Shown here: piece by piece, positions 1,736-18,165 of the stretch
Layout: each line of letters starts with the position of its first letter
How positions within the stretch are numbered: the stretch's first letter is position 1
NCBI RefSeq assembly: GCF_004348725.1
Contig: NZ_SMKR01000006.1
Coordinates: 1 to 64,000, forward strand
DNA from: Kribbella turkmenica
GTDB lineage: Bacteria; Actinomycetota; Actinomycetes; Propionibacteriales; Kribbellaceae
Direction of reading: 5' to 3'
DNA length: 64,000 bases
The notes under the pieces: generated by a model
What the model saw: the letters and a program-made list of their open reading frames with translations, nothing else
Told to the model about the DNA's origin: nothing
The model's database searches: none
Made by a program: the position numbers and the translations under genes

Positions 1736-1881
1736 CGCGTTCTGCCGCTCACCACGGCGGCGGCATCGCTGACTCAGGGTTCATCGCCGTTCTTTGCAGG
1801 CAGGTCGCCCTCGGCTCGGTACTGGCAGCGCTGGATGAATTGCAGCGATACTTGTCCGAGCAAAACCGATGGGGGAGACAG

Positions 1882-2547
1882 ATGACCGATCCGTGGGGGA
1901 GCACGCCGCCCAAGCTTCTTGTGTGGTGCACGGACTGCGAGAAGACCGTGCACGCTACCCAGCGCGGCGTGGTGAGCAAGTGGCACGAAGACCAAGGCAT
2001 CTCGGTCGATACGAAACTGGTGTCGTGCGATGTATGTGATCGTGCCCTGTTATTTGGCCAAGTCGACTGGGGAGACGGTTATGACGAGCCCGTCCGGTGG
2101 TGGCCCGACGCCGACCGACCTCTTAATCCTGTGATCCCTGAAGCGCTCCGAAATGAACACGACGAAGCTCGACGCTGTTATTTGGCGAAGGCGTACACCG
2201 CCACGGTGGTGATGATCCGAAGGACTCTTGAGGGAGTTTGCGCTAGCCACGGCGTCAACGAGCGTACACTGGTGAAAAGCTTAGACAAGCTGCGAGATGA
2301 CGGCCGTTTGGACGCTCGCCTCTACGACTGGGCGACGGAGCTACGCCTACTCGGCAACGATGGCGCGCACTACAGCGGCAATCCCGTGAGCCGCGAGTTC
2401 GCTCGGGATGCGCTCGACTTTGGTGAAGCCATGCTGGACTACATGTACGTGCTCACTGCGCGTTTCGAGGGTTTCAAGCTACGCCGCCAGGCGGACAGGC
2501 AGCAGCACAACCAGGCGAGCACACCTGTCATGTCGCCTGAGAGCTGA
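1882..2547 (+). CDS. DUF4145-family protein with N-terminal zinc ribbon
   Basis: 221 aa from the ATG at 1882, chosen because GGGGGAGA precedes it; the open frame runs further upstream without a good site. Two CxxC pairs near the N-terminus (WCTDC and SCDVC) suggest a zinc ribbon. The helical remainder, with an LGNDGAHY segment, fits DUF4145, a HEPN-like family found alone or fused to restriction subunits. It sits alone between the integrase and the Nudix-like gene. A defence or RNA-related role is inference only. Confidence 0.7.
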   Translation: MTDPWGSTPPKLLVWCTDCEKTVHATQRGVVSKWHEDQGISVDTKLVSCDVCDRALLFGQVDWGDGYDEPVRWWPDADRPLNPVIPEALRNEHDEARRCYLAKAYTATVVMIRRTLEGVCASHGVNERTLVKSLDKLRDDGRLDARLYDWATELRLLGNDGAHYSGNPVSREFARDALDFGEAMLDYMYVLTARFEGFKLRRQADRQQHNQASTPVMSPES

Positions 2548-2793
2548 CAATCCGAGGTCAGCGCGGCGCCCTTCAAGCGTCGGGTAGTCGCGCTATTCCT
2601 CGCGCCAATGCGGAACTGGTCCTCACGAGGACGTGCTCGAGTAGCGCCGCGGTTTCTGGTTATTCGACAGCCCCTGCGTCATGACACCTCGCTCGCCGGT
2701 AAGCATCTCGAGTTGAAGGTCACCGCTGATGCTCGCCGGACTAAGTCTCGTGAGGCACACTACGCCCATGGTTCGGTGTGGAAGGGGGAACGA

Positions 2794-4068
2794 ATGAGTG
2801 CCGATGTCGCGGGGGTAGTTGTCGGTCTCATAGCGCTGGTTGTCGGGGCTATCGGGGCCTTCGCCGCCTTGAGATCCAACTGGTTCGAGAGCACCGCACA
2901 GAGTCAGGAAGAATTCCGTGACGTTCGTCGCCAACTGAAGGAGCATCGGCCAGCCTTGGTGGAACTTGCCGCCAAGCTACATACTTCGACGGCCAACGGA
3001 CCGACGACCGTACCGCGTACGCATCTGCTGACGGACCCGCAGTGGATGCCTGACCGACCTGTTCCACTCGACGCTGTGAGGCTCAGTTGGGTCGGTGGCC
3101 GTGTCGGGCGAGCACCGCAAAAGATTCTTCGGGCAGCCCGCAGGGTTCTGCCCGTATCGACCGGCCGCCGCCGTTTCGACAGCTACAGCAACGCACTCGG
3201 TGCCCTAGCGCGGCCGACATTGTTCTTTGATAACCCAACCTTCAGCCTCGTGGCCTCGGACTGGACTGACCCCGCATCACCTCAGCTGAGTTTCTCTGAG
3301 TGTCGTTACTTTCCAACAATCGACATAGCCGAAGCGTTGTGTCATGAGTTGGCCTCCGTGGCGATCTCTGGTCCAGACGGGGAGGTTCTGCAGCCCAGCT
3401 GGCGCTCGATGCCACTGCGTCGCGCGATGCGCTCACGATTGCTGGACCCGACTTTGCGGCCAATCTCGATCGCGGTCAGTACGCTACTGATTCGGCGCAA
3501 GCCCGATGGAAACGCTGAGTTCTTTCTCAATCTGCGCGATGCTGAGGCGACCGTCACCTATGCTGGCGCGTATATGGTCGTCCCCACCGGCGTATTTCAG
3601 CCAGGCAGCAAGTCGCCAGCGGCGTTGCGCGAAGACTTTGACCTATGGCGAACGATCATGCGTGAGTTCAGCGAGGAGGTGCTAGGCAATCCGGAAGCCG
3701 ATGGCACGCTAGGGATGACAGTGGACTACGCAAACGAGAGCCCGTACGTCGAGCTCGACCAAGCGCGCTTGGCTGGCGAGATTCGCCCGTACTACCTCGG
3801 CTTCGGGCTGGACGCCGTGGAGTTATGGGCGCACGTACTGACTGCCGTTGTGGTGGACGATGCGGCCTTCGGTCGCATCGCGCCAACGCTGGTGGAGAAA
3901 AACGCAGAAGGCATCATGATCGGGCACGTACGCACGAAAGCAGGGATCCGGGGCATCCCGCTGTCAAAGGACCAGGTGGACTTCTATCTGTCCGCTGGGA
4001 TGATGAGTTCACCTAGCGCCGCGTGCCTCGCGCTTGCCTGGCAGCATCGCAGCCTTCTGCTGAGCTGA
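2794..4068 (+). CDS. Membrane-anchored Nudix-like protein
   Basis: 424 aa from the ATG at 2794 (preceded by GAAGGGGGAA); the reading frame is open 186 nt further upstream but without a convincing start. Residues 4-26 form one hydrophobic segment, so the protein is probably tethered to the membrane with a cytoplasmic body. Around residues 260-300 a GVFQPG segment is followed by REFSEEVLG, close to the REUxEE core of the Nudix box, but the spacing to the upstream Glu is imperfect, so hydrolase activity is uncertain. Its 3' end overlaps the convergent GHMP kinase gene by 56 bp. Nudix domains fused to membrane segments occur among nucleotide-signalling defence systems; that link is inference. Confidence 0.6.
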   Translation: MSADVAGVVVGLIALVVGAIGAFAALRSNWFESTAQSQEEFRDVRRQLKEHRPALVELAAKLHTSTANGPTTVPRTHLLTDPQWMPDRPVPLDAVRLSWVGGRVGRAPQKILRAARRVLPVSTGRRRFDSYSNALGALARPTLFFDNPTFSLVASDWTDPASPQLSFSECRYFPTIDIAEALCHELASVAISGPDGEVLQPSWRSMPLRRAMRSRLLDPTLRPISIAVSTLLIRRKPDGNAEFFLNLRDAEATVTYAGAYMVVPTGVFQPGSKSPAALREDFDLWRTIMREFSEEVLGNPEADGTLGMTVDYANESPYVELDQARLAGEIRPYYLGFGLDAVELWAHVLTAVVVDDAAFGRIAPTLVEKNAEGIMIGHVRTKAGIRGIPLSKDQVDFYLSAGMMSSPSAACLALAWQHRSLLLS

Positions 4069-5062
4069 CCACGAGACCGTCATCATCGATCAGGGTTCGA
4101 TGAATTGCAACCGGAAGGTCGCGCAGTGCGATGACGATCCCGTCGGCGCCGTCTGGGTCCGCAAGAACTATGACACATCCACCGGCGCCAGTTCCGGTCA
4201 GCTTGGCACCATAGGCGCCGCGGGACAGAGATCGTTGAACAGTCTCGTCGATCAGATCAGTCGAAACATGTAACCGATCCCGCAGCAGACTTTGACACGC
4301 CGTGAACAGTTCACCGAGTCGGTAAGGTGCTGGTCTCGAGCCAGCCAGCAGGTGGCGCATCTCGGCGACCAACGCGGTGGTCTCGTCCACATAAGTGAGC
4401 ATGTCGGGCTCGTGTGCCGCCCATCGTAGCCGCTTAGTTGCAATTACATCCTTGGTTCGACGCTTGGTGAGCGTGTCAACGATGATGAGTTCCGAATTTG
4501 CAGGCATAGCCAGCTGCTCAATCACCGCCGGCGGATCAGCAGTGCAGTCGAGATACTGCACACCGCCTAGAGCGCATCCATAGAAGTCCATCTGCCCCGC
4601 CCCCGTCCCCAACTGCTCCATCTCGGTAGCGAATGCGGCCTCGATGACCTGATGATTGTCGAGGGGGCGACAGAACACCTCGTTCAGCGCGGCGACGACA
4701 GAGACAACCACGGCGGCGCTGCTGCTCAGGCCCGCCCCCGGCGGCACGGTTGAGCGCACGGCTACGTTCAGCCCATCCAACCGAAGTCCTGTGGTTCGCC
4801 GGAAAACAGCTGCGGCAGCGCGAATATGACTAAACGCCTCCGTTGGATCGTTGTGGTCCAAAGCATCTATCGCGACGAGCTTGCGGCGGCTATACGGTGC
4901 GCCCGTGCTCAGCCCAAGATGGCGCGGCTTCTCGCGCCGACACACGGCGGCCTCGGCGCGAAGCCCAATTGCGGCAAGGATCGATGGCCCCGTTGTCCAA
5001 TCCAGATCTTCCCCTGCAAGGCAGATCCGACCGGGACATGAAGCCGTCATCTCCTTGAGCAT
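4013..5062 (-). CDS. GHMP-family small-molecule kinase (galactokinase/mevalonate kinase-like)
   Basis: 349 aa. All three GHMP motifs are present: PGRICLAGEDLDW near residues 10-22, the phosphate-binding PPGAGLSSSAA at 107-117, and KLTGTGAGG at 287-295. The family phosphorylates sugars or isoprenoid alcohols with ATP; the substrate here cannot be read from the sequence. The start codon overlaps the stop of the upstream radical-SAM gene (TGATG), so the two are translationally coupled. The 3' end overlaps the opposing Nudix-like gene. Confidence 0.88.
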   Translation of the reverse strand: MLKEMTASCPGRICLAGEDLDWTTGPSILAAIGLRAEAAVCRREKPRHLGLSTGAPYSRRKLVAIDALDHNDPTEAFSHIRAAAAVFRRTTGLRLDGLNVAVRSTVPPGAGLSSSAAVVVSVVAALNEVFCRPLDNHQVIEAAFATEMEQLGTGAGQMDFYGCALGGVQYLDCTADPPAVIEQLAMPANSELIIVDTLTKRRTKDVIATKRLRWAAHEPDMLTYVDETTALVAEMRHLLAGSRPAPYRLGELFTACQSLLRDRLHVSTDLIDETVQRSLSRGAYGAKLTGTGAGGCVIVLADPDGADGIVIALRDLPVAIHRTLIDDDGLVVSSAEGCDAARQARGTRR

Positions 5063-6183
5063 CAGATGAACAGATCCTCGTCAGTCTGGTCTACCGGCGC
5101 CAGCATGGGCATGCCTGCGCCGCTGATCCGGAGGAGTTCTAGGTTGGACTCGTGCCGAATGCAATGGAACTCGCAGTCCGTTCTGGGATCGATTCGTCGC
5201 AGCGCCTCGCGTCGCTGGGGTCCTCGCCACAACGTGTTGAAGTCAGTGTTAGTCGGATCGCCGTACCGCGCTCGAGCGTTTCCCCTGTGGTAGGGGCAGA
5301 CATACGCCCCTGATGGTGTCAATAGCGTGCGCAACTCCAGGGTCGGGCACCAATCGTACTCTTTGAGTTGCGTTGTGGGACCGCCCGACAAGACGACGTC
5401 CAGATTGTTGGGCTTCAGCACCGCAAAGGTCTCCGATTGCAGCGCATCGATCCGACCTAATTGCTCGTGCAATTGGCCGACGAGTTTCTCATCCTGGGCG
5501 ATGATGTAGTGCCCCATGTCGTACTCCGGCTTGACTTCGAAGTAGTCACAACCGATGTCGGCCGCGAGACGCGCAGCGGACTCAACCTCATCGAAGTTCG
5601 ACTCTACGACCCGCCCAGCCATGTCTCGTCGCGACATCAACAGATAGGAGAATCCGAGCTTGCCGCGCTTCCGCCCGGCGAGCAGCCGCATGTTAGCCAC
5701 CACCTGCTCGAATTTGGCGCCACCGGACCGAGCCGGACGGAACCGGGCGGAGGTCGAGGAACTGGCGGCATCGACTGAGACTCTGGTCCAGGTGACCTTC
5801 TCCGCCAAAACGTCCAGGCATCGGTCAATTGTCGTTCCGTTGGTAGTCAGCCCGACTTGAACGTCAGCTTCAGCCAAAGTTTTGATCACCTGCGGTGTGG
5901 CGGGATGAAGCAGTGGTTCTCCCCCGCCGATCAGAATCACTGCGCGAACACCGACGGCAGCCAGCTCCTCGGCGAGTGTGGTTAGACGGTCGCGGGTGAA
6001 CCTGGCCTTGTTTAGAAGCGGACTACTGATGCACTCCGGACACGCGAGGTCGCAGAAGCTTGTCGGATCTAGCTCGACCACAATCGGCGCCGAAGGCGAC
6101 TGTCCTCTCGCAAGGGCAGCCAACGCTGGCTGCACCCCCACCTGTCGAAGCTTGCCGGTCAAGTCAAGCGGTCCATGGTTCAT
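5062..6183 (-). CDS. Radical SAM protein with C-terminal Cys-rich (SPASM/twitch-like) region
   Basis: 373 aa. The [4Fe-4S]-SAM motif is CDLACPEC (C44, C48, C51), followed by GGGEP at residues 87-90 for SAM binding. The C-terminal third has further cysteines (DWCP, YVCPYHRG, DCEFHC), as in SPASM/twitch domains that hold auxiliary clusters. It lacks the features of viperin-type enzymes. First gene of a two-gene unit with the GHMP kinase; the product could be a modified peptide, sugar or nucleotide. No precursor peptide is obvious nearby. Confidence 0.88.
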   Translation of the reverse strand: MNHGPLDLTGKLRQVGVQPALAALARGQSPSAPIVVELDPTSFCDLACPECISSPLLNKARFTRDRLTTLAEELAAVGVRAVILIGGGEPLLHPATPQVIKTLAEADVQVGLTTNGTTIDRCLDVLAEKVTWTRVSVDAASSSTSARFRPARSGGAKFEQVVANMRLLAGRKRGKLGFSYLLMSRRDMAGRVVESNFDEVESAARLAADIGCDYFEVKPEYDMGHYIIAQDEKLVGQLHEQLGRIDALQSETFAVLKPNNLDVVLSGGPTTQLKEYDWCPTLELRTLLTPSGAYVCPYHRGNARARYGDPTNTDFNTLWRGPQRREALRRIDPRTDCEFHCIRHESNLELLRISGAGMPMLAPVDQTDEDLFI

Positions 6184-6316
6184 TCTACGATCCCCTCCCT
6201 AGAGCGCACTTCAGGGTACGGCAGCAGTCACGTTCTGCAGCTCCTTCAGCGCGTCGCCCCGCGGCGTCTCCCTATCAATGGTTCGCTTCAACAGGGACCC
6301 GCGGACGGTTGCCACA

Positions 6317-6358
6317 TGCCGCCTGTCGGAACCGAACCAACGACATTCTCATTACGAG
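6317..6358 (-). pseudogene. 3' half of tRNA-Thr(CGT), relic
   Basis: Read on the minus strand, the sequence starts at an anticodon loop CTCGTAA followed by TGAG, has an intact T arm (GTTGG loop CCGAC) and the 3' acceptor strand AGGCGGC plus A, without CCA. The 5' half is missing. A half-tRNA beginning at the anticodon loop is what a tyrosine integrase leaves at an attachment site. A 19-bp stretch (6346-6364) recurs exactly at 33389-33407. Confidence 0.6.
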
Positions 6359-6463
6359 GAGGAAGGTCACCGTCACATCTGCCGTCTTCAGGCGTGATTC
6401 GTTGCAAGGAACCTATCTCCGGTGCCCGTATTTCTCATCCGTATCTGGCAGTTCGCTCCACGA

Positions 6464-6778
6464 ATGGCTCCACGCCGCCGCTACAACTCCCCCGTCCGCT
6501 GGCCCAACTCCGACCCACGATCAGGGGCGGTCTGCACCGCCGCCGGCGTCAACCCCGACCACCACCGGGTCTGGGTGCACGAGGGAACCTCCGCTCTGGT
6601 CGTCAGAGATGTGGAGATCGCAGGGCTCCTATTAGCCGCCGCGGCTCATGCTGACCGCCACGTCAGTGGCGAGCGTCTCGCTATGGCCGACGCACGGCAC
6701 CGAGATCGGGTCAAGCGTCAGGAGATACCCAAGTCTTTGATGATCTGCTCCTTGGACTCCGTGGGCATGCGCCTGTAG
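6464..6778 (+). CDS. Hypothetical protein (doubtful)
   Basis: 104-codon open frame with no recognisable family. It has a plausible helical stretch (GVNPDHHRVWVHEGTS, then an alanine-rich segment). Its 3' end overlaps the opposite-strand zinc-finger gene by about 60 bp. No clear ribosome-binding site is seen. It could be a decayed gene in the otherwise empty stretch between the radical-SAM gene and the defence block. Confidence 0.25.
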   Translation: MAPRRRYNSPVRWPNSDPRSGAVCTAAGVNPDHHRVWVHEGTSALVVRDVEIAGLLLAAAAHADRHVSGERLAMADARHRDRVKRQEIPKSLMICSLDSVGMRL

Positions 6779-7410
6779 GTGGTCCAGGCTCGATCGAGTG
6801 GTGTGGGCCCTCGATGGCCTCGCCGTATCCACCGGTAGATCCGGTCCTGGTCGACCTTGTCGAGGTTCCGGATGTCTGAGAGCAGTCTGCCGATGTCGGC
6901 ACGGTCTGATCGCTCGGTTCCGGCGCGGCAGAATTTGCATAGCGTGACCAACTGCTCGGCATCTGTCCCGTCCGGCAGAGCAACGGTACGCAACGTGACC
7001 GAGAGAACGGCGGTCTGGTGGGGTGCCTCGGGGTAGGGCTCGCCGCCGGCAATGCCGCAGTTGGAGCACTGATAGTTATCGGCCGCGAGCGTGGCCTGGC
7101 GCTGCTTAGCCGAGACCGTCGTGATCGCGGCCTCGCGGCGGGCGTTGCTGTCCCACACTGCTGTGCCTATTTTGACGAGGCGCTGCTCCCCGGATGCCAG
7201 TGAGGCGTCGTCGGTGTTGGTGTGGATTACCCATCCGTAGTCGCGGAGATCGCGGATCCGCCGGTCGGCTTGGGATATCCCTGGGAACGCCTGCCGTACC
7301 TGTTCCTTGGTGAAGACCCCTCCCTCGCCCACTTCGGCGGCGAGCCAGAGCGCGCCCTTGATCATCGTGCCCGCCTTCAGTGCGGGGTCGTCCCATCGAG
7401 GAACAGTCAC
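6718..7410 (-). CDS. Winged-helix plus degenerate HNH/zinc-finger protein
   Basis: 230 aa, GTG start preceded by GGAG. The N-terminal 80 residues look like a winged-helix DNA-binding domain (FTKEQVRQAFPGISQADRRIRDLRDYGW). A zinc site is formed by CSNCG and TLCKFC, the spacing seen around HNH nucleases, but the expected DH and central His/Asn residues between them are absent, so it is probably a non-catalytic HNH-like finger. It is divergent from the ParB-like gene across about 100 bp and probably belongs to the restriction-modification block. Confidence 0.65.
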   Translation of the reverse strand: MTVPRWDDPALKAGTMIKGALWLAAEVGEGGVFTKEQVRQAFPGISQADRRIRDLRDYGWVIHTNTDDASLASGEQRLVKIGTAVWDSNARREAAITTVSAKQRQATLAADNYQCSNCGIAGGEPYPEAPHQTAVLSVTLRTVALPDGTDAEQLVTLCKFCRAGTERSDRADIGRLLSDIRNLDKVDQDRIYRWIRRGHRGPTPLDRAWTTYRRMPTESKEQIIKDLGIS

Positions 7411-7511
7411 GGTAGCTCCGCTAACGCTGGCTGGGGGTCATGGGTTCTCACTGTTCGTGATCGCTGGCAAGATTACACGGGACTCCGAAGGAATCGGGGG
7501 AAGGGGCTGGC

Positions 7512-8921
7512 GTGACTACCAAGAGCGACGTGCCGCCGCAGGGCGAGCAGATTCATTCGATGGTGAAGGAGCGGCTGGAGGAGGCGAGCAAGGCCAACGG
7601 GGAGAAGCTCACGATCGAGTGGCGGGGCGAGCAGCGGCATCTCTATGTGATCTCCATGCCGGTCGATCTCCTGTTCTACAACCCGGACACGCACCGGATT
7701 CGGGCGCAACGATCGCTCGATCCGGAGCGCGACCGCGGGCTCGACGAAGACCCGTGGAGCCCCGCGAGCCAGGACTACCTTGACCGGCTGCTGAAGTCCC
7801 AGCCTTCGGACCCGGACAAGATCGATCCAGATTTCGAGGCGTTGCGGGACAACCTTGAAACTTTCGGCCAGATGACACCTGGCCTGATCACCGTGTTCGG
7901 TGTGCTGGTCAACGGGAACACCCGGTGCGCTGCGTTGCGCGAGCTCGGTGAGAAGTACATCCGGGTCGCCGTCCTGCCCGAGACCTCGACGTGGGATGAC
8001 ATCAGCACCGTCGAGCTGGCGCTGCAGCTCCGCAAGGAGCACAAGCGGGACTACTCCTACATCAACAGGCTGATTGCCATCGACGAGCAGCTGAAGCTGG
8101 GACGGCGCCCTGAAGACATCGCCAGAGACTTCCACATCAAGACCGCGACTCTTGAGCAGGACCGCTGGGTCCACACCATCATCAGGGACGCGATCGCGCG
8201 CAGCCAGACCGATGATGGTGCCGCTCTGCGCATGGTGGACTTCGAGGATCATCAGGAGAAGCTGCGGGAGCTGTATCGGGCTTATACGAAGACTGCGGCG
8301 AGCGACCGGGATGAAGCCGAAGCGCTGAAGGAGTCGCGGCTGGCGATGATCGTTCTGGGCTACGCCAAGACTGATGTCCGGCTGGCTCAGGCGGACTTCC
8401 ACACCAAGTACCTGGATCCGAAGCTCCCGGAAGCCATCAAGCCATCGGTAACGTCGGCAAGCGCGGTCGCCGTTCCCGGCTTAGGGGACCTGACCGTTCC
8501 CGAGACGGCGCCAACAGCGAAGGTCAACAAGGCGCTTACGGATTCGCTGCTGAAGGCGAAGGCCCAAAGCCAGCAAGGGCATGCGGATCAAGCCACGGTT
8601 GCCGCGGCCTCTGACGCGCTGATGCAAGCAAAGGACGCCTTCGACCGCGCACTTACCCCCGCAGGCCGCGATGTCCGCCTGCAGCAGCGCCGGCTTGCCG
8701 CGCCCGAACGGCTGTCGGACGCATGCGATGACATCGAACTTTGCGCCGGCGAGCTGGCACAGGCTCGGGCCACGCGGGCGCTAGACGAGGCGGCGTTCGA
8801 CGACGCCGTGCTGCGTCTGCGTGAGGTTATGCGCAAGCTGGCGAGGGAGGCGGCCCGGACATTCATCGAGCCCGGTGATGGAGTCGCCTGGCTCCTCGAC
8901 ACGGTCGAGGACCATTCGTGA
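7512..8921 (+). CDS. ParB/Srx-like nuclease-fold protein
   Basis: 469 aa, GTG start with a strong GGGGGAAGGGG upstream. The ParB-like signature is FGVLVNGNTRCAALRELG (GNTR at residues 135-138), followed by a helical DNA-binding-like region (EDIARDFHIKTATLEQDRW) and a charged helical C-terminus. ParB-fold proteins bind or hydrolyse nucleotides and occur in defence loci as well as in partitioning; no ParA partner is present here. The stop overlaps the helicase start (GTGA), so the two are coupled. Confidence 0.8.
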   Translation: MTTKSDVPPQGEQIHSMVKERLEEASKANGEKLTIEWRGEQRHLYVISMPVDLLFYNPDTHRIRAQRSLDPERDRGLDEDPWSPASQDYLDRLLKSQPSDPDKIDPDFEALRDNLETFGQMTPGLITVFGVLVNGNTRCAALRELGEKYIRVAVLPETSTWDDISTVELALQLRKEHKRDYSYINRLIAIDEQLKLGRRPEDIARDFHIKTATLEQDRWVHTIIRDAIARSQTDDGAALRMVDFEDHQEKLRELYRAYTKTAASDRDEAEALKESRLAMIVLGYAKTDVRLAQADFHTKYLDPKLPEAIKPSVTSASAVAVPGLGDLTVPETAPTAKVNKALTDSLLKAKAQSQQGHADQATVAAASDALMQAKDAFDRALTPAGRDVRLQQRRLAAPERLSDACDDIELCAGELAQARATRALDEAAFDDAVLRLREVMRKLAREAARTFIEPGDGVAWLLDTVEDHS

Positions 8922-10741
8922 CATCTCCGAGCTTGCAGCTCGCGCTGGGCGATGATGCCGTGACGGCGCGGCTGCGTGCGAGAGCGGGCCGGGAGGAGGA
9001 CCTCCACAGGCTCGCCACCCGGTTCCGTACGGCGCGTTTCCGGACGTACGGAACCGTCGACGTAGCGATCGAAGATCTCCTGCTGAATCTTGCGGAACTG
9101 ACGGCCTGGCCTGAGCCGGAAACGGTGAGGTGGGATCCCGAGCTCGCCGCGCTCGCACTGGACACCACCATGGATGCGCGATCCGTTGGGAGCCGACTTG
9201 AGGGCCAGGCGATCCCCGAGAGCGCCGAAGTATCACCTGATGATGTACCAAGCGTCCTCGGATCGGGCTGGGTAGGGCCGCTCACCGCATTCCAGCGCCG
9301 GGACATCGCGAAGCTTCTCTCGCTCCGCCATGGCGCGAACTTCTCCGTGCCGGGTGCCGGCAAGACCCGCGTCGGCCTGGCCATCTTCCACGCGCTGCGC
9401 CAGGCAGGTCAGGTGAACAGGCTGCTGATCGTCGGCCCGAAGTCCTGCTATGAGGCTTGGCAGGAAGAGAACCAGCTCTGCCTCGCCGATCCCCTTCATA
9501 TGGAAGTACTCGGCTCCGGCATCGATCCGGCCGCGAACGCACTTCTTGTGAACTACGAGCGTCTTCAAGGCTCACTCAATGGACTGGCGCGCTGGCTGAC
9601 AGCTCAGCCCTCCATGCTCATCCTTGACGAGGCGCACCGGATGAAGCTGGGGACTGAGGGCGTGTACGGCGCCGCCTGCATGGCGCTCGGCCCCAGGGCG
9701 CGCCGGCGGCTGATCCTGACCGGCACACCGGCTCCGAATGGCGCCAGGGACCTCGAGAACCTGCTCGGCTTTGTCTGGCCTGGGTATGGACGCCAAGCCG
9801 TTGTGAGAGCTGTTGCCGGGGGCAATCTCGCGCATGCAAGTGAGGTGCTGCGCCCGCTGTTCACCCGCACAACGAAGGGCGAGCTCCAGCTTCCGCCTGT
9901 CACGGTCACGCAGCGCCTTCTCGATATGCCGCCACTACACCAAGAACTCTACGAAGCCCTGATAGGGCTGTACTCCGCCCGGGCAGCCACGTCACAGGAC
10001 GATCTGGAGGCCATCGGCCGGATCGTCGTCTATCTGCTCATGGCCGCGATCAGTCCCGCGTTGCTCGCCGTCGGGACGACCAGGTACGAGCCACTGGCCT
10101 ACCAGGTCCCGCCGCTTGCCATTCCGGAAGGCTCGCCGCTGCTCGACCTCATGCGTGACCTCCCGAGCTACGAGATGTCACCGAAGTATCGCGAGACGCT
10201 CGCAATCGTGGCGGAGAATGCAGCCGCTGGGCGCAAGACCCTGGTCTGGTCAACCTTCATCCGAAGCGTCGCCACCCTCGAGGTGATCCTGAAGGAGTTC
10301 CAGCCTGCCGTCGTCCATGGCGGCACGGAGGACCGCGAGGATCAGATCGCGCGGTTCCGCACCGACCCAGACTGCCTGGTGCTGTTGTCGAATCCCGCGA
10401 CACTCGGAGAAGGGATCAGCCTGCATCACGAATGTCATGACGCCGTCTACGTCGACCGCGACTTCGCCGCCGGGCGGTTCCTGCAAAGCCTGGACCGCAT
10501 CCACCGTCTCGGCCTGAGCCCCGACACTCAAACCAAGATCACGGTGCTGACCAGTACAGGCACCATCGACGAGATCGTGAACCAGCGCCTGGAGATGAAG
10601 CTCCAGTTCATGGGGCGCATCCTGGATGACCCAGCAGTCCAGCAGCTGGCCGACCTTGACGAGGAGCCAGCCATCGGGGCCGGGCTCGACCAGCGGGACA
10701 TGCAGGCACTGATGGGGCACCTTCGTGCCAATTCCACCTGA
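8918..10741 (+). CDS. SNF2-type superfamily 2 helicase/translocase
   Basis: 607 aa, GTG start overlapping the ParB-like stop. Motifs in order: Q-like segment LTAFQRRDIAKLL, Walker A PGAGKT (145-150), DEAH (237-240), motif III LTGTPAPN, and the C-terminal RecA domain with SNPATLGEGISL and LDRIHRLG near residues 490-530. SNF2 translocases are central to DISARM and other defence systems and accompany some type II restriction loci. It probably works with the DUF3883 protein, whose start lies inside its 3' end. Confidence 0.9.
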   Translation: MTSPSLQLALGDDAVTARLRARAGREEDLHRLATRFRTARFRTYGTVDVAIEDLLLNLAELTAWPEPETVRWDPELAALALDTTMDARSVGSRLEGQAIPESAEVSPDDVPSVLGSGWVGPLTAFQRRDIAKLLSLRHGANFSVPGAGKTRVGLAIFHALRQAGQVNRLLIVGPKSCYEAWQEENQLCLADPLHMEVLGSGIDPAANALLVNYERLQGSLNGLARWLTAQPSMLILDEAHRMKLGTEGVYGAACMALGPRARRRLILTGTPAPNGARDLENLLGFVWPGYGRQAVVRAVAGGNLAHASEVLRPLFTRTTKGELQLPPVTVTQRLLDMPPLHQELYEALIGLYSARAATSQDDLEAIGRIVVYLLMAAISPALLAVGTTRYEPLAYQVPPLAIPEGSPLLDLMRDLPSYEMSPKYRETLAIVAENAAAGRKTLVWSTFIRSVATLEVILKEFQPAVVHGGTEDREDQIARFRTDPDCLVLLSNPATLGEGISLHHECHDAVYVDRDFAAGRFLQSLDRIHRLGLSPDTQTKITVLTSTGTIDEIVNQRLEMKLQFMGRILDDPAVQQLADLDEEPAIGAGLDQRDMQALMGHLRANST

Positions 10742-11576
10742 ACCCGTCCTGAGGGCCGCAGCACGCTGGCTCGAACATCTCCCGGCATCCGACCTTGCCC
10801 GTACCCGCGCTCTCTTCACAACACACAGCGGCTTCACCGACATCACACCGACTCAGTACGCCGCAGCACTGGACTGGCTGAAGGACGGCGGGCTACTCAG
10901 CACCGCCGGGACACGAAGCTCACAACGAGCTTCGCTGTTCGAAGCCGCGGTCTTGGAGAGTCTCTGGTTCAGGGACGCCGACGCTCTGATCAGCTCCCCC
11001 GAGGCGCTGCCAGACGACGCTCTGCGGGCCGCGGAGGCTCTTAGCATCGGGCCAGAGGCCGCCCACGCGGTTATCCGGGCCGCATGGGGAAAGGTGGACA
11101 CAGCCGAACGAGCTCGGCTTGGGGCTGCAGGTGAAGAAGCTCTTGTCGAACTGCTGTCGTCAATCGCGGGTGTGTCCGTCGTTCACGTTGCCAAGGAATC
11201 TGACGGCTTCGGTTACGACATCCAGCTCACAACGGACGCGCAGACCGTCCACTTGGAGGTCAAGACGACAACACGCCGCGGGAACCTGAGGATCTACCTG
11301 TCCCGTAACGAATACGACACCATGCTTCGCGATAGAGCCTGGACCCTTGTCGCCGTGCGGCTGACCGAGGAACTCAAGCTTGCCGCCCTTGCCACTATCA
11401 ACCGGGACTGGGTACATGGCGTCGCCCCAGTCGACAGCGCACCAGGCGCCCGGTGGGAAAGTGTCCGGCTCGATGTTCCGCCGGACGTCTTGACCGCCGG
11501 CGTGCCGAGACTAATCGACGCGATCCCTCCGCCGCTCGATCCGCTGCTGCTCGGCAAGCCGGCCTGGCCGGGGTGA
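10725..11576 (+). CDS. DUF3883-like PD-(D/E)XK protein
   Basis: 283 aa from a GTG that overlaps the helicase gene by 17 bp. The C-terminal half has G-E137, then YD165, and E178-V-K180 (HLEVKTT), a D-x12-ExK arrangement typical of PD-(D/E)XK nuclease folds and of DUF3883 domains. The N-terminal half is helical and unassigned. Translational coupling places it in one operon with the ParB-like and helicase genes, probably as the nuclease or DNA-end-sensing partner. Confidence 0.78.
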   Translation: MPIPPEPVLRAAARWLEHLPASDLARTRALFTTHSGFTDITPTQYAAALDWLKDGGLLSTAGTRSSQRASLFEAAVLESLWFRDADALISSPEALPDDALRAAEALSIGPEAAHAVIRAAWGKVDTAERARLGAAGEEALVELLSSIAGVSVVHVAKESDGFGYDIQLTTDAQTVHLEVKTTTRRGNLRIYLSRNEYDTMLRDRAWTLVAVRLTEELKLAALATINRDWVHGVAPVDSAPGARWESVRLDVPPDVLTAGVPRLIDAIPPPLDPLLLGKPAWPG

Positions 11577-11712
11577 GATCCTACGGAAATGCGATCTGCC
11601 GGCGTCTCGATGCTTGGCTGAATCGGCCTGCCTCGCCACGGACGGCCGCGACATGGCTTCCCGTGGTTTGTACCCATTGGCCTGGCTCCGGAGGCTTACA
11701 CTCCGTTTCGTA

Positions 11713-12177
11713 CTATCGTGCTCGCCTGACCGCCTCGAGTACTCTCTCGGCCGCGTCGGCGACGGAATCGTGTTCCCAGATCCGGACGACGGTCCATCCG
11801 GCCTCGGTCAGAGCCGTCGTGTACATCTCGTCCCGCGCAAGGTTCCGCTCTAACTTCGGTCCCCAGTACCCAGCGTTGCGTGTGGGTGGCCGCCCATGCT
11901 CAGGGCAGCAGTGCCAGAAGCAGCCATCGACGAAGACTGCTACGCGGGTCCGGGTGAACACGATGTCGGGCCGCGGCTTGATCGTGCCGAGATCGATGCG
12001 CAGATCCTTCCGGAACCGCAGCCCGGCGCGATGCAGCGCCGACCGCAATGCCAGCTCAGGCTTGGTGTCCGTACGGCGGATGGCTGCCATGTTGCGGGAC
12101 CGGCCCGGGGTCGGTGGAAGGAGCTGTGGTTCTCGTCTCCGCAGGTCATCGACCTCCGGCTTCGACACGCTTCGCAA
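11713..12177 (-). CDS. vsr: Very short patch repair (Vsr-type) endonuclease
   Basis: 154 aa. Family signatures are clear: SRNMAAIRRTDTKPE, RPDIVFTRTRVAVFVDGCFWH with CCPEHG zinc ligands, and GYWGPKLERNLARD. Vsr enzymes nick T:G mismatches that arise by deamination at methylated cytosines, matching the adjacent C5 methyltransferase. It is transcribed away from that gene across about 117 bp. The start could lie a few codons downstream of the first ATG; the conserved region begins at about residue 25. Confidence 0.93.
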   Translation of the reverse strand: MRSVSKPEVDDLRRREPQLLPPTPGRSRNMAAIRRTDTKPELALRSALHRAGLRFRKDLRIDLGTIKPRPDIVFTRTRVAVFVDGCFWHCCPEHGRPPTRNAGYWGPKLERNLARDEMYTTALTEAGWTVVRIWEHDSVADAAERVLEAVRRAR

Positions 12178-12294
12178 AATGTCGGCGCCTCCCGCAATGG
12201 TGGGGGTTCATGGGAGAAGATGCCTTACGGCTAACCTTCCCCGAGCAGTATCGCTCGCCCTCATGCTACGTACGCCCGGACGGATTGGAGCACC

Positions 12295-13281
12295 GTGACC
12301 GACCTCACGACCCTGGAGATTTGTGCCGGCGCGGGCGGGCAGGCGATCGGTCTAGAACTGGCTGGCTTTGGCCACTCGCTGGCTGTGGAGATTGACCCGG
12401 ACGCCTGCGAGACGCTCCGACTGAACCGGCCGGAGTGGAAGATCCATGAGGGCGACGTGCGCGAGGTGAACGGCCGCGACTATCGCGGGATCGACCTGTT
12501 GGCTGGCGGTGTTCCTTGCCCGCCGTTCAGCATCGCGGGCAAGCAGCTCGGCGCCGATGATGAGCGCGACCTCTTCCCGGAGGCCATCCGCCTTGTACGG
12601 GAGGCCAAGCCGACCGCGGTCATGCTGGAGAATGTGAAGGGCCTGGCGACTGCGAAGTTCGCCACATACCGTGAGTCGATCTTGGAGTCCCTGAGCAAGC
12701 TCGGATACGCATCCGACTGGCAGGTGCTCAATGCGTCGGAGTACGGAGTTCCGCAGCTGCGGCCACGCTTCATCCTCGTCGCCATCCTGAAGAAGTACGC
12801 CGACAACTGGCACTGGCCGGAGCCTGTTGGAACTCCGCCGACGGTCGGTGAGGCGCTGCTCCCGCTTATGCAGAAGGACGGTTGGCAGGGCGCCCGGCTG
12901 TGGGCGAAGAAGGCCAATGGGATCGGTCCGACCCTGGTAGGTGGCTCCCGAAAGCATGGCGGCCCTGATCTTGGTCCCACCCGTGCGCGTGCTGCGTGGC
13001 TTGAGCTCGGCGTGGACGGCAAGGGTCTTGCTAACGAGGGTCCGACAAGTGAGACCCCGGTTGACCACATCCCGCGGCTGACGTTGCCGATGGCCGCGCT
13101 GATCCAGGGCTTTCCGGCCGACTGGCAGTTCTTTGGCCGGAAGACCGCGGCGTATCGGCAGATTGGCAACGCGTTCCCGCCGCCAGTCGCGAAGGCCGTT
13201 GGCGTCAGCATCCGCAGGGCCATAGGCGCTGTCGATCAGTTGTCGGCTGCTGCTCCGGTTCAGCGACTCATGGCGGTCTAG
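12295..13281 (+). CDS. DNA (cytosine-5) methyltransferase, NgoMIV-type system
   Basis: 328 aa, GTG start with GGAG 7 nt upstream. Motif I AGAGGQAIGLELAGF, motif IV GGVPCPPFS with catalytic C75, motif VI MLENVKG, motif VIII QLRPRFILVA and motif X GNAFPPPVAKAVG are all intact. The downstream endonuclease on the other strand is NgoMIV-like, so the target is probably GCCGGC (inference). Because that endonuclease is frameshifted, the methyltransferase may now act alone. Confidence 0.94.
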   Translation: MTDLTTLEICAGAGGQAIGLELAGFGHSLAVEIDPDACETLRLNRPEWKIHEGDVREVNGRDYRGIDLLAGGVPCPPFSIAGKQLGADDERDLFPEAIRLVREAKPTAVMLENVKGLATAKFATYRESILESLSKLGYASDWQVLNASEYGVPQLRPRFILVAILKKYADNWHWPEPVGTPPTVGEALLPLMQKDGWQGARLWAKKANGIGPTLVGGSRKHGGPDLGPTRARAAWLELGVDGKGLANEGPTSETPVDHIPRLTLPMAALIQGFPADWQFFGRKTAAYRQIGNAFPPPVAKAVGVSIRRAIGAVDQLSAAAPVQRLMAV

Positions 13282-13284
13282 GAC

Positions 13285-14063
13285 CTACCAGTACCGCAAG
13301 GCCGCGCTGAGAGTGTTGTAGTCGCGCAGCCGTCCCTGGTCGACGACTTCGCCCCAAGCTTCCTGCTGGCCAGTGTTCTTCGACGCGCTCACAGCTGCGG
13401 CGAGTTCGTCAAAGGCGACGTGGTACATGGCATCGACCTCACCGGTCCCTCGGGCGATGCTTGCGAGGCGCGTTGGAAGCGGTTCGGCGGTAACGGTGAT
13501 CAGGTGTGGCTGCCTTCCGCGGCGGTGGCGAACCATCTGGCCAAACTCGTGCCGGATGTTTTGGATCCGGTCCGACCTGATCGTCCACTTGCAGGACACC
13601 GCGGCATGCATCCAGGGCTGTGTCGAGGCGGTAGGGGTTCCGACGAGGCCGACGACCACGTCCGGCTTGATCAGGTAGTCCCGGCCCACGGTGACCCGGA
13701 GGTTCGGGTTCTTGTCCATGACGCTGTCCAGCGCCGTGAGATGCGCGTATTGGGCGTAGTCGGTGATTAGCGCTCCCGTCTGACCTCCCAGAGTCGTGAG
13801 GGGTCGAGGACGGGGAGCTCCTGGGCCAGCGCAGACCTAACGGAATCCTCCAGGTGTGCGCCGGGGTTCGCAGGCGGCTGAGCGGTAGGGATGCCGCCGA
13901 GGTTTGGATTCGGGATGCCGAGGCTGGTCAGCATCGCGGCCGCGAGAGTCAAGGACTCCAGGTTGTCCACATCTGCGACGTTGGGCACCCACGCCAACTT
14001 CGCCTTGTTCTTGGTGCTGGCTTTCCAGCCGAGCAAACTCGACGCGAACTTGGGCGCGGTCAT
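13285..14063 (-). pseudogene. NgoMIV-type restriction endonuclease, frameshifted
   Basis: The N-terminal part (14063 to about 13767, beginning MTAPKFASSLLGWK) and the C-terminal part (to 13285) lie in different frames. The homologous protein continues from EVRRER into LITDYAQYAHL; at about 13768-13772 one C appears to be missing, producing an immediate stop. The C-terminal fragment retains the NgoMIV active-site pattern (KPD, then SCK before WTIRSDR). The intact length would be about 258 codons. The start overlaps the HNH gene stop (ATGA). Either a natural inactivation or a one-base sequencing error. Confidence 0.85.
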
Positions 14064-14923
14064 GCGGTGCCGTCGGTCTTTGCTGCCTTGTTCGCGCGCT
14101 CGCGGCGGCGGATCTCGGCGCTGATGCTTCCTTCGGGCCACGGTTCCCAATGCGTGCACTTGTAGTACGTCCTTACCCGCGCACCTTCGTTGTAGCGCTT
14201 CTCCACGGATATCTCCCAGTCGAGCGTGCGGAACTCCCGCGTTCTCTTCTGGTAGTCCTCCTGATAGGCCGCAGCGCTTGCCACGATACCGATCAGCTCG
14301 GTCGGCACCCATTGTCCCTGCAGCGCCTTGAGCAACTCGCCGATGCGGCGGTGCACTTCCTCGTGGCCGATCGCGGCGCGGATCTCGTCTGCATGCCCGC
14401 TATAGGACTGATACCAGGACCGCTTCCCACCGTTGCATTGTTCGCATAGTGGCTGGAGATTCTCCGGCTCGTCTCCGCCGCCCCAGTCTCTTGGAACCTT
14501 GTGGTCAACCACCAGGACGACGCCGTGATCGAGCGGCGTCCTTCCACACTGGGCACACCGTTGGGGAGCGAGAATCTGCGCACGAAGCTTGTCGCTGATC
14601 CGCGGCCCGGGATGGCGCGGACCGCCGGGGCGCCAGCCCTTCAGGTGATACCTGAATTCCTTGCCGTCACGGATTGCGGGAACGTCAAGGCCACATTCCC
14701 GGAGGACCCGAACCCGCCTGTTGACGTGGGTGGCGTGCCTCCCGGCCTGCGAGGCAGCAAACGCCTCGATCTCGGCCATTGTCGGCGGGTGTTGCCGACG
14801 GCGGAACAGAAACCCGTAGATCCGTTGCTCCACCGTGCCCGGCACGAGGGCGCGGAGTTCTTCACTGTCGGGCTCCGGCAGGCGCCACTCCTCGCCATTC
14901 ACTCTGCGCAAGGTAGCCGGCAC
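14060..14923 (-). CDS. HNH endonuclease
   Basis: 287 aa, GTG start. The HNH core is complete: C123xxC126, D140-H141, the Asn of ENLQPL (N155) and C160xxC163. The first 110 residues look like a helical winged-helix-type specificity region (TMAEIEAFAASQAGRHATHVNRRVR). It is the first gene of a coupled pair with the NgoMIV-type endonuclease. HNH partners of this type accompany several actinobacterial Dcm/Vsr clusters; it may restrict modified or mismatched DNA (inference). Confidence 0.87.
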   Translation of the reverse strand: MPATLRRVNGEEWRLPEPDSEELRALVPGTVEQRIYGFLFRRRQHPPTMAEIEAFAASQAGRHATHVNRRVRVLRECGLDVPAIRDGKEFRYHLKGWRPGGPRHPGPRISDKLRAQILAPQRCAQCGRTPLDHGVVLVVDHKVPRDWGGGDEPENLQPLCEQCNGGKRSWYQSYSGHADEIRAAIGHEEVHRRIGELLKALQGQWVPTELIGIVASAAAYQEDYQKRTREFRTLDWEISVEKRYNEGARVRTYYKCTHWEPWPEGSISAEIRRRERANKAAKTDGTA

Positions 14924-15025
14924 CCGGGCTCGGTGACGAGCCTAGATCGGTGACAGGCGCGCAAGATGCCGGCCGCCAGGGGATGCGGCAGCCGGGGGCG
15001 TAGCCGCTCCCTCAGCGCAAGCCAG

Positions 15026-15241
15026 TTACTGCCGGTCTATCCGGCCAACGACGCCGGTCGTACCCTGAAGTCCCGTGTAGGCGATCAGAGCCCGGCGGAT
15101 TACGTCGGAGAGACTCTCTCCGTTCTCGGCAGCCCTGGCTTGGGCAGCCTCCCATAGGTCGTCGGACACCCGAACCGCCCGGACCTTCGTTGCCGACCTG
15201 TCACCCTTGCGTGGGTCTGACTGCTCCAGGGCCGACATCAT
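15026..15241 (-). CDS. Ribbon-helix-helix (CopG/Arc-like) DNA-binding protein
   Basis: 71 aa starting at the ATGATG that overlaps the stop of the upstream gene. The core VRAVRVSDDLWEAAQARAAENGESLSDVIRRAL is a typical RHH fold: a short beta strand then two helices. It is coupled to the 117-aa gene that carries the palindromic operators in its leader, so it is a good candidate for the repressor binding those sites. Confidence 0.78.
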   Translation of the reverse strand: MMSALEQSDPRKGDRSATKVRAVRVSDDLWEAAQARAAENGESLSDVIRRALIAYTGLQGTTGVVGRIDRQ

Positions 15242-15591
15242 TCCTGTTCGTTCTCGTCTGCGTCGAACCAGACCCACCCGGTGAGGTCGTAGAGAGGCGT
15301 GCCATCAGCGGACTCTCCCGCGCGTGGGAACTCCTCGGGCTCGTCGTCGTCGTTCCGCAGGTAGATCAGGGAGTCACCGACCTCGGTCACGTATCCCCAG
15401 GTGCCGTTGGGGTCATTACGGCGCCAGGCATAGAGGAAGTCACCGAGCGCGTCGGCGGTCGCAAGCGGCCGAAGCCAGCCGTTCCACCGCTCGTCAAGGA
15501 CGCGCTCAGCCTTGAGCGCGAGCTCGGGCGTGATGTTCTCCGGTGCGCTGTCGAGGTAGACGTCCATAGGGGCAAGGTTACGCGTGGTCAT
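15238..15591 (-). CDS. Hypothetical acidic protein, coupled to RHH gene
   Basis: 117 aa. The start at 15591 (MTTRNLAPMDVYL) is chosen because GGAGAGG lies just upstream; the open frame runs on through the operator repeats, where translation is unlikely. The protein is rich in Asp/Glu and Trp, with LYDLTGWVWF near the C-terminus. No family recognised. With the RHH gene it resembles a small two-gene module such as a toxin-antitoxin or accessory control unit; this is inference. Confidence 0.65.
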   Translation of the reverse strand: MTTRNLAPMDVYLDSAPENITPELALKAERVLDERWNGWLRPLATADALGDFLYAWRRNDPNGTWGYVTEVGDSLIYLRNDDDEPEEFPRAGESADGTPLYDLTGWVWFDADENEQE

Positions 15592-15614
15592 TACGGTGGC
15601 CTCTCCGCTCAAAC

Positions 15615-15653
15615 GGTGTATATACACCAAAGCCTAGCTGGTGTATATACACC
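15615..15653. promoter_or_regulatory. Twin palindromic operators GGTGTATATACACC
   Basis: Two identical perfect 14-bp palindromes at 15615-15628 and 15640-15653, 25 bp apart centre to centre; the right one extends to 18 bp (CTGGTGTATATACACCAG). They lie just upstream of the 117-aa/RHH operon and about 110 bp before the divergent gene at 15764, so they can control both. A dimeric repressor, probably the RHH protein, is the likely ligand. Confidence 0.8.
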
Positions 15654-15763
15654 AGTCAATAGCGGGGTGCCTGCAGACCGGGCAGGTGAGCGCCTCCCGC
15701 CACGTGCCCGAGCCACGCCGAAGGCATGGAAATTGTCGGCGGCCGCTGGGATCGTGTTGTGGT

Positions 15764-16162
15764 ATGGAGCTGACTGGCCGGGATTTCGACCGGATACCGC
15801 GGGAGAACCTGCATGTGCCGGTGCGCGAGTTCGCCCGGCTGTGGTTGACGGCTGAGCGGCGCGGTGACGCGCTGTCGGCTGAAGGCCGAGGCGACTGGTA
15901 CCTAGCAGGCGTGCAGGTGACGTGCCGTTGGCTGGCGTGTGCGTTCGTGACGTTCAACTATCCCACCGGGGCGGTCCGGCAGCGGGCGCGCGCTCCGATC
16001 ACCGGGAGCACTAGGAAGGCGTACGAGGAGCTGATCGCGCGGGAGACTGAGGCCGCGGAGCGTGCAGTTGCTCGCGGTGGGCACCCTGTTAGGAGCGGCC
16101 TGTGGCATGCTTGCCGAGCCAGTCTGAGGTCTGAGCGACGCACGAGCGCCTGTACTTGGTAG
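15764..16162 (+). CDS. Hypothetical protein at island right end
   Basis: 132 aa from the ATG at 15764 (MELTGRDFDRIPRENLHV). The frame is open further upstream through the operator. The protein is helical and basic with a WLACAFVTFNY segment and an ELIARETEAAERAVARG coiled stretch; no family assigned. The last 25 or so residues look unlike the rest and may reflect a frameshifted C-terminus. It is the last island gene before the right attachment repeat. Confidence 0.5.
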   Translation: MELTGRDFDRIPRENLHVPVREFARLWLTAERRGDALSAEGRGDWYLAGVQVTCRWLACAFVTFNYPTGAVRQRARAPITGSTRKAYEELIARETEAAERAVARGGHPVRSGLWHACRASLRSERRTSACTW

Positions 16163-16427
16163 GCAAGTGCAGGGTGCCCGCCGGGATGACGCCGCAGGCC
16201 GGCCGGAGGGAAGACGGGTTATGTCGCGGAGTCACTGCTGACCACGAATCTCGTGCATGGCCAGGCGATAACCTCTTCAATCGTGAGCTGTCCGTCCTTT
16301 ACTCCGCTCAATCAACAGAAGATGATGACTATGCAAGATCACCAATGCGCGGCCTGGTTGGGTGAATCCGCAGGTCATGGGTAGATTTGGCAATTGATGG
16401 CAAACGATGAGTGCATTCTTGTCAGAC

Positions 16428-16468
16428 TCCGCGGGTTGTGGGTTCGAGTCCCACGGGGCCTACCAGCC
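16428..16468 (+). repeat. attR: 41-bp copy of tRNA-Lys 3' end
   Basis: Exact 41-bp copy of 96-136, without the tRNA 5' half. It marks the right boundary of the 16.3-kb island. A second integrase relic starts about 120 bp further on, mirroring the spacing between the intact tRNA and the first integrase. Confidence 0.94.
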
Positions 16469-16586: not shown

Positions 16587-18165
16587 ATGGCCAAGGCGAA
16601 CGGTCGTAACTAGCGCGACCGCGGCGGTGTGGATGTGCTGCCGAGCGGCGCCATCCGAGTGCGCGTGTACGCCGGCATAGACCCGGTGTCGAAGCGCCGT
16701 CGCGACCTGACGGGGTCATCCCACCCGGCCCGGACGCCGCGATCTCGCCGAGGAACACGAGTGCGGCTGCTGAACCAGGTGTACGAGCGCCGCAACCCAC
16801 GCACCAAAGCAACTGTGAACCAGCTGCTCGACAATCACCTGTCCGAAGCCGATCTCGAGTTCAGCACTCTCGACGGCTACAACGGCTACGCCGACAAGCA
16901 GATCCGTCCTCTCCTTGGCGGCCTGAAGGTCGGCGCCCTCGATGTCGGCGTAATGGACTACCGGTACGCCGAGCTCCGCCGTTGCCGCGACCACTGCAAG
17001 AACACCAAAGGTGAGGTCGACCCAGAACCACCCGCGAGCACGCATGCGATGAGCGATGCAGACCACACACCTGCAAGCCGCTCGCAGCTTCAACGATCCG
17101 TCAGATTCACTGCATCCTCTACGGCGCTCTGCGACGCGCGGTGCGCCCGAAGTGGGTCACAACCAATCGATCGCCGACGCAGAGCCGCCCGCGGCTCCGA
17201 AGGGCAACCCCGCGCCCATCTACGCCGGAGCAGGCTGCCCGCATCATCAACGAGGCCTTCAAAGACCCAGACTGGGAACCCTCATCTGGCTGACCATGAT
17301 CACGGGCCAACGCCGCGACGAACTCTGCGCAATCCGCTGGCATCACGTCGACTGGACAACGCCGTCCTTCATCTCGAGAAAGCCATCGGCCAGCGCAGTG
17401 GAAGGAAATGGGCGAAGGACACCAAGGCCCACCAGGACCGCCGCATCACCCTCGACCCCGATACCACCGAGCTCCTCCGCGAGCACAAGGCCCGCTCGAC
17501 CGCCCGCGCCGAGCAGCTCCAAATCGAGCTCGCAGACGACTCATTCGCCTTCTCACTCGCCCCGGACCGATCCACCCACCTGATCCCTGACTCCGTCACC
17601 CAGCGCTACAGCAAGCTGGCCAGTCGCCTCAGGATCAAGACCACGCTTCACAAGCTTTGCCACTGCTCCGCCACCGAGCTGATCGCCGCAGGCGTTGACA
17701 TCCGAACCGTCGCCGGCCGCCTAGGCCACGGCGGCGGCGGAACTACCCCATGCGCGCCTACACCGTCCGGGTCTCCGAATCCGACCAGCGCGCCGCTGGC
17801 ACGCTCGCCTCCCGCATTCCCAGTCGGCCAAGGGTCGCAGACGCGGCAACCATCGCCATCACCGATCCTGGCCCCACGAGTCCCTACGAGAAGCTCGCCG
17901 TAGGCCTCCGAGCCCGGATCATCCAAGGCGAGCTCCGCCCAGGCCGACCTATCCCGTCCTCAGGGAACTCGCCGCCCACGGCACCTCAGTCTCAACGGCC
18001 CAACGCGCAGGAGAACTCCTCGCCGAGTGGGGCCTCGTCGAACTCATCTCCGGCTGTCGCACCCTCGTCAAGAACGTCATGCGGCCACAGAACCGATTGT
18101 CGCAACGCCAGCCATCGGCAGCAGCGAGAAAGCTCATGTGCCCGAGGGACGGCGTCGAACACTGA
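16587..18165 (+). pseudogene. Decayed tyrosine integrase-GntR gene
   Basis: Homologous throughout to the integrase at 245-1735. After eight codons there is an in-frame TAG; later the frame shifts several times: the first-Arg region reads in another frame near 17290 (ITGQRRDELCAIRW), the HxLRH motif is changed to HKLCH, the catalytic Tyr lies in a different frame at about 17760 (MRAYTVRVSESDQ), and the GntR domain ends in yet another frame (LAAHGTSVSTAQRAGELLAEWG). Clearly non-functional. It is the remnant of an older element at the same tRNA-Lys site. Confidence 0.92.

Follow-up and report, generated by a model that had tools for sequence, protein, structure and literature searches.

A ParB-like, SNF2 and DUF3883 gene set linked to a C5-cytosine methyltransferase in Kribbella turkmenica: a candidate ATP-dependent restriction module

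What function is served by a ParB-like protein, an SNF2-family motor and a predicted nuclease that are encoded side by side with genes of a type II restriction-modification (R-M) system? This question is raised by positions 6718-14923 of a 64,000-nucleotide stretch of Kribbella turkmenica DNA (contig NZ_SMKR01000006.1 of assembly GCF_004348725.1), the whole of which is called the window here. A previous, sequence-only reading of this DNA described eight genes in three transcription units, in which a type II core had been joined by a translocase and nuclease set. The analysis presented below indicates that the locus holds two things: a type II R-M set, made up of a methyltransferase (MTase), Vsr, a frameshifted NgoMIV gene and an HNH endonuclease (HNH2), and a separate, conserved four-protein module that comprises a winged-helix-turn-helix (wHTH)/zinc protein (HNH1), the ParB-like protein, the SNF2 ATPase and the DUF3883 protein (the quartet).

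Gene content and mobility of the locus

The genes of the locus occupy at least five strand blocks rather than three transcription units, with HNH1 on the reverse strand, ParB-SNF2-DUF3883 on the forward strand, Vsr on the reverse, the MTase on the forward and HNH2-NgoMIV on the reverse. The coupling that had been claimed within the ParB-SNF2-DUF3883 and HNH-NgoMIV groups is borne out by overlaps of 4 bp between ParB and SNF2 (8918-8921), 17 bp between SNF2 and DUF3883 (10725-10741) and 4 bp between HNH2 and NgoMIV (14060-14063). Across related loci, the ParB and SNF2 genes lie on the same strand and within 30 bp of each other in 86 of 86 pairs, as do SNF2 and DUF3883 in 56 of 56 pairs, 40 of which have the identical 17-bp overlap.

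Within the quartet, HNH1 (6718-7410, reverse strand) contains a winged HTH followed by a CxxC..CxxC zinc domain of degenerate, HNH-like character. Among 83 sequences C115, C118, C158 and C161 are invariant with no conserved histidine, another residue stands where the catalytic histidine would be expected, and a Pfam search of this gene gave no HNH match. The lack of the catalytic histidine beside invariant zinc cysteines argues against an HNH nuclease, so this one assignment of the earlier gene list appears not to hold, while those of the ParB-like protein, SNF2, DUF3883, Vsr, the C5-MTase and the second HNH protein do. The wHTH signature Q47 x D49 R50 R51 x R53 x L55 R56 is invariant in 83 relatives; the AF2 model of HNH1 (pLDDT 92.9) has no significant fold match in the PDB, and searching PDB sequences with profiles of ParB and HNH1 gave no relevant match. 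Since winged helices are known to sense methylation in other restriction enzymes (PMC11037411), HNH1 is proposed as a candidate methylation reader.

The ParB-like protein (7512-8921, forward strand; AF2 pLDDT 91.4) has a ParB N-domain with the motif GNTRxAA, an HTH and a long C-terminal helix, and residues G130, N136, R138 and A141 are invariant in related loci. It is matched by ParB in PHROGs (5e-5) and has no match in Pfam. Its modelled N-domain and HTH align with Noc, ParB and KorB (Foldseek 1.7e-4, probability 1.0), which makes an NTP-dependent clamp or switch plausible, though its box II reads GNTRxAA. Nicking of DNA by proteins of the ParB superfamily has also been reported, as cited in PMC12839542. 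The SNF2-family ATPase/translocase (8918-10741, forward strand; PF00176 1.5e-13) carries a Walker A motif SVPGAGKT and a DEAH box, its motifs are invariant in 86 sequences, and its top PDB match is an Snf2/Rad54 helicase (3e-26). The DUF3883/NOV_C protein (10725-11576, forward strand; PF13020 4.8e-9) is a predicted PD-(D/E)xK nuclease in which E137, D165, E178 and K180 are invariant among 54 sequences, so that the E...D...ExK catalytic set is complete. A tRNA-Leu call at 10868-10957 falls inside this coding sequence and is probably a false positive.

In the R-M set, the C5-cytosine DNA MTase (12295-13281, forward strand; PF00145 over residues 5-306, 3.2e-70) is intact and is accompanied by a Vsr T:G mismatch endonuclease (11713-12177, reverse strand; TIGR00632 3.7e-40, above the cut-off; PF03852 7e-20). 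These parts of the proposed type II core therefore stand, but no intact cognate restriction endonuclease (REase) goes with them. The NgoMIV-family gene (13285-14063, reverse strand), which had been taken as intact, is split between two frames, with the N-terminal part at 13767-14063 and the C-terminal part, matching PF09015 (5e-39), in the other frame at 13285-13836. Uninterrupted relatives are found in loci L014 and L036, and the L014 protein aligns with the window over residues 4-85 in one frame (14051-13782) and 92-255 in another (13767-13288). The frameshift lies between 13782 and 13767, in a draft assembly of 351 contigs, so a sequencing error is possible. HNH2 (14060-14923, reverse strand; PF01844 2.6e-9) is a wHTH-HNH endonuclease with an intact HNH motif.

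The target-recognition core of the MTase (VGGSKKHGGADLGPTRAK..W) is the same in enzymes encoded beside NgoMIV, NaeI, GmrSD, Z1 or no REase. NaeI and NgoMIV both cut GCCGGC. Because MTases that neighbour these two GCCGGC cutters have this core in common, the mark is predicted to be placed at GCCGGC or a variant of it. In the chromosomal part of the window this site occurs at 0.95 of its expected frequency, and avoidance, considered as a sign of long-standing restriction, is not seen there.

The whole defence locus is carried as cargo by an integrative island of 16.3 kb (~96-16468) at a tRNA-Lys(ttt) gene (58-133, forward strand; ARAGORN), because a 41-bp repeat within the 3' end of this tRNA (96-136, forward strand; left att) has an identical copy at 16428-16468 (forward strand; right att) and an integrase gene lies just inside the left end. 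This tyrosine integrase ORF (104-1735, forward strand; PF00589 9.7e-20; PF00392 3e-12), whose true start is downstream of the tRNA, has a GntR-type C-terminal domain. In several relatives, partial copies of the tRNA-Lys end also occur tens of kb from the tRNA, and the gene is therefore a used integration site.

Other features of the island and its borders can be described in their own right. The GntR-type HTH of the integrase is perhaps a fusion remaining from an actinobacterial integrative element (int plus a korSA-like gene), and a DUF4145 protein gene (1690-2547) adjoins it. Farther inside, a GHMP-kinase gene (4013-5062) overlaps a radical-SAM gene (5062-6183) by 1 bp, and convergent with this pair is a 486-aa ORF (2608-4068) that has no Pfam match and includes a REFSEE stretch that recalls NUDIX; the genes at 2608-6183 are possibly a small modification cassette. 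Immediately beyond the right att, a second, weak tyrosine-integrase match (16629-17903) is probably the leftover of another element at the same site.

Recurrence of the quartet and its link with the methyltransferase

To place the locus among its relatives, an SNF2 alignment was scanned against 84,980 species genomes, yielding 437 relatives of which the best 80 were read; these 80 and four loci from relatives make up the 84 scored loci. Far from being confined to this genome, the ParB-SNF2-DUF3883 trio recurs widely, among soil bacteria and in several other phyla: in the 84 loci a ParB gene is present in all, HNH1 in 82, the C5-MTase in 79, Vsr in 72 and DUF3883 in 54. The REase at these loci, as judged from gene maps and family scans of adjoining genes, is NaeI in 13 and NgoMIV in 4, and neighbours also include GmrSD in 7 loci and Z1 proteins in a cluster of 13 loci, one representative of which was identified, so the quartet is kept while the REase is NaeI, NgoMIV, Z1/CglI-type, GmrSD or unrecognised. 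Among 148 relatives, ParB homologues with 50-56% identity are found in three and homologues with 25-29% identity in two more; none was found in phage records. A copy of the quartet on a Nocardioides gilvus contig (L007, 12925-16485) has a TrwC relaxase gene nearby and may reside on a conjugative element.

At least 15 Streptomyces loci (L052, L053, L056, L059, L068-L071, L074, L078, L080, L084, L086, L091 and L092) contain HNH1-ParB-SNF2-MTase-Vsr with neither DUF3883 nor a recognised REase in the locus, and they may hold an unrecognised or unlinked enzyme. Two further candidates in Streptomyces were set aside: a conserved gene of ~300 aa upstream of HNH1, considered as a hidden REase, resembles an XRE-type regulator instead, and a gene of ~340 aa after Vsr is a SEC-C-type chromosomal neighbour. 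About 22 Streptomyces loci (L023, L025, L027, L034 and members of L051-L092) share a sodium-solute symporter neighbourhood in which the content and orientation of the module differ, and this spot is a chromosomal defence hotspot.

The pairwise distances of HNH1, ParB, SNF2 and DUF3883 correlate with one another at 0.86-0.92, with those of the MTase at 0.67-0.73 and with those of Vsr at 0.16-0.50, all values that include shared species history. By these correlations the four members form one evolutionary unit, so the trio described previously has to be extended by the gene at 6718-7410. The SNF2 tree departs from a species tree: it places the window with the myxobacterium Corallococcus (support 0.97), and the MTase tree places it with Arthrobacter (support 0.99); parts of the locus thus travel and reassort, yet the MTase is retained. 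Of the five loci that have no MTase nearby, L024 and L077 lie where their contigs end, in L066 the gene comes ~5.7 kb further along, and for the two Kribbella loci L009 and L010 (genomes G022 and G005) an enzyme of this MTase family is encoded next to NaeI and Vsr at another place in the genome.

When presence of the MTase in the 148 relatives was scored at E <= 1e-50 and identity of at least 55%, it was found in three of three genomes with a close quartet versus seven of 145 others (Fisher p 2e-4). A distant ParB is present in one of these seven, G005; the remaining six carry the MTase but lack both the quartet and any such ParB, so the dependence is one-way: the module needs the MTase and not the reverse, as expected of a restriction component. 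A caution for reading the quartet in this manner comes from a solitary Caulobacter MTase of YGCCGGCR specificity, the loss of which is harmful via a Vsr-like protein, showing that an MTase-Vsr dependence can arise without restriction (PMC12907096). The MTase-Vsr linkage seen here could likewise come in part from repair rather than from restriction.

More distant forms of the set hint at a role for the first protein. On plasmids of Azospirillum, Kozakia, Rhizobium and Mesorhizobium, and in one Kribbella genome (L011), ParB-SNF2-DUF3883 is preceded by X, a conserved protein of ~285 residues that is unrelated to HNH1 and occupies its place; genes for a C5-MTase and Vsr are close by, frequently along with one for a GIY-YIG nuclease. 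Since the companion protein, HNH1 or X, swaps together with the type of MTase, a specificity role for it would fit, as judged from these two types. No MTase is present within the stretch read of the distant or plasmid loci L099, L100, L105 and L107, and the genome of L099 (G149) has no close homologue of the window MTase. In Lactiplantibacillus (Bacillota), a ParB-SNF2 pair is located between dcm and Vsr. A locus on Rhizobium plasmid pRL11 (L103) includes pieces of a GIY-YIG gene (7018-7423) and, beside the MTase, a second X copy of 29% identity (3995-4531).

A putative restriction module and the alternatives to it

From these observations, we regard it as fairly probable that the quartet is an ATP-dependent restriction module licensed by its partner MTase. 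In such a pathway, target DNA that lacks the 5mC mark or carries it wrongly would be recognised by HNH1, by the ParB-like protein or by both. The ParB-type NTP-binding domain would be loaded as a clamp, with the SNF2 ATPase as the translocating motor and DUF3883, or in some loci another nuclease, as the proposed cutter. Host DNA would be spared through its marking by the MTase, and Vsr would repair the products of 5mC deamination. The suggestion of the sequence-only reading, namely a ParB-SNF2-DUF3883 unit of its own that is linked to the state of methylation, agrees with its recurrence, its distance correlations, the retention of the MTase and the exchange of the REase. Counting against a restriction module are the distant or plasmid loci with no MTase in the stretch read, the possible repair basis of the MTase-Vsr linkage, the lack of GCCGGC avoidance and the absence of DUF3883 from 30 of 84 loci. 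This last gap, together with the at least 15 Streptomyces loci among them that show no recognised REase either, makes the cutter assignment only putative. What the comparison shows is the gene content, coupling, coevolution, linkage to the MTase, exchange of REases, intact motor and nuclease motifs and mobility; a defence function, the reading of methylation, the identity of the cutter and the GCCGGC target are predictions drawn from it.

A more ambitious form of this proposal, which we put forward tentatively, is that the quartet represents its own type of stand-alone restriction system, in which a ParB-type NTP-dependent DNA clamp would be loaded where a swappable specificity protein (HNH1 for actinobacteria, X for Alphaproteobacteria) reads the DNA, and would bring in an SNF2 motor and a nuclease. 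The C5-MTase would then only license self DNA, and classical REases would be optional.

The adjacency of the quartet to many different REases could instead mean that it helps type II systems, by clearing or repairing DNA that has been cut by the REase or is mismatched, or by degrading ends after REase cleavage. DNA processing commonly involves SNF2 motors and wHTH/Zn proteins, and both unlinked Kribbella cases also hold an NaeI gene with the MTase in the genome. Against a helper, the quartet core is accompanied by MTase and Vsr but by no recognised REase in at least 15 loci; in the window it is the REase that is frameshifted and the quartet that is intact, and DUF3883 retains a nuclease motif of its own. 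We consider this account somewhat unlikely.

Less likely still is a role of the quartet in regulation or epigenetics, in which it would use the 5mC mark to control transcription or chromosome structure, or for ParB-like organisation, and would take no part in restriction. Noc, ParB and KorB, the nearest matches of the ParB fold, bind DNA without cutting it, and many Streptomyces loci have an XRE-type regulator beside the module and Vsr as the only nuclease. This explanation is hard to reconcile with the mobile-island and hotspot setting, co-inheritance with R-M genes, a PD-(D/E)xK motif that is invariant wherever DUF3883 occurs, and a patchy distribution (3 of 395 other genomes in a sample of the phylum). 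Finally, defence genes do cluster, and the different sister taxa of the window in the SNF2 and MTase trees show that parts reassort, but a chance meeting of two unrelated defence units is very improbable given how often MTase and Vsr accompany the quartet, compared with 66 background Vsr matches across 149 genomes, which are several Mb in size, and given that the two complete exceptions carry the MTase in trans.

If the quartet is a restriction module, its retention of the MTase and its exchangeable REase would account for many of the 'R-M systems' and 'orphan' methylases of GCCGGC type found in actinobacteria. It would also be a rare case of a ParB-type switch in defence, and would have relevance to the transformation of Streptomyces and its relatives, which is hampered in practice by restriction.

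Relation to known systems

The locus resembles type II R-M systems of the NaeI/NgoMIV kind in its C5-MTase, Vsr and NgoMIV-family gene, and its relatives have NaeI; it differs in adding a coevolving four-gene ATPase module and in an REase that is frameshifted here and exchanged or unrecognisable elsewhere. The likeness to DISARM noted previously rests on a generic SNF2-type motor and a C5-MTase, and the absence of the standard genes was stated correctly: the locus has no drmA, drmB (MZB/DUF1998) or drmC (PLD), DrmD models reach at most ~28 bits on its proteins, SNF2 scores only 11 bits against DrmA, DrmC has no match, and the only MZB/DUF1998 protein of the genome is on another contig (C55). 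The locus is therefore not DISARM. An identity with Druantia type II is also rejected, since DruE, DruF and DruG have no match among nine locus proteins, although the best PADLOC model for the MTase is DruM2 (594 bits, versus 418 bits for a plain type II MTase model). PADLOC-DB 2023 has no models that cover the ParB or HNH1 of the quartet. Compared with ParB of ParABS, Noc and KorB, the ParB-like protein shares the fold of the N-domain and HTH, and is distinguished by a box II of GNTRxAA versus GERRxRA, a large extra helical C-terminus and a constant SNF2 partner; ParA has no match among the locus proteins.

Closer in composition are R-M operons in which an SNF2 helicase is fused to DUF3883 (PMC3710099) and MORC/SNF2/HNH/MTase/Vsr operons built around MORC ATPases (PMC2292703). 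In the accessible portions of these two articles, the operons contain the same kinds of parts as the locus (a SWI2/SNF2 ATPase, DUF3883 as an REase-type domain, a C5-MTase, Vsr and HNH-type proteins) but centre on HEPN or GHKL/MORC proteins, and those portions do not describe a ParB-SNF2-DUF3883-wHTH/Zn set. The window has no HEPN or GHKL ATPase match; the GHKL ATPase (HATPase) of MORC/paraMORC R-M is absent from the locus proteins and present in L007 and L041. The CglI and NgoAVII systems, in which a C5-MTase acts with an NTP-dependent restriction complex of R and helicase subunits (PMC5737866; PMC4267653), provide a precedent for the way the quartet may work, and some of its relatives have a Z1 neighbour, but the motor is of a different family and the window has neither a Z1 helicase nor an R.CglI protein.

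No published name for the set was found in the literature searched, which included no preprints and few subscription-journal papers. Methylation-linked, ATP-dependent restriction is already known as a kind, and published precedents for the quartet consist of single pieces only; the quartet is probably a restriction machine not described before, one that would leave DNA bearing the mark of its host uncut.
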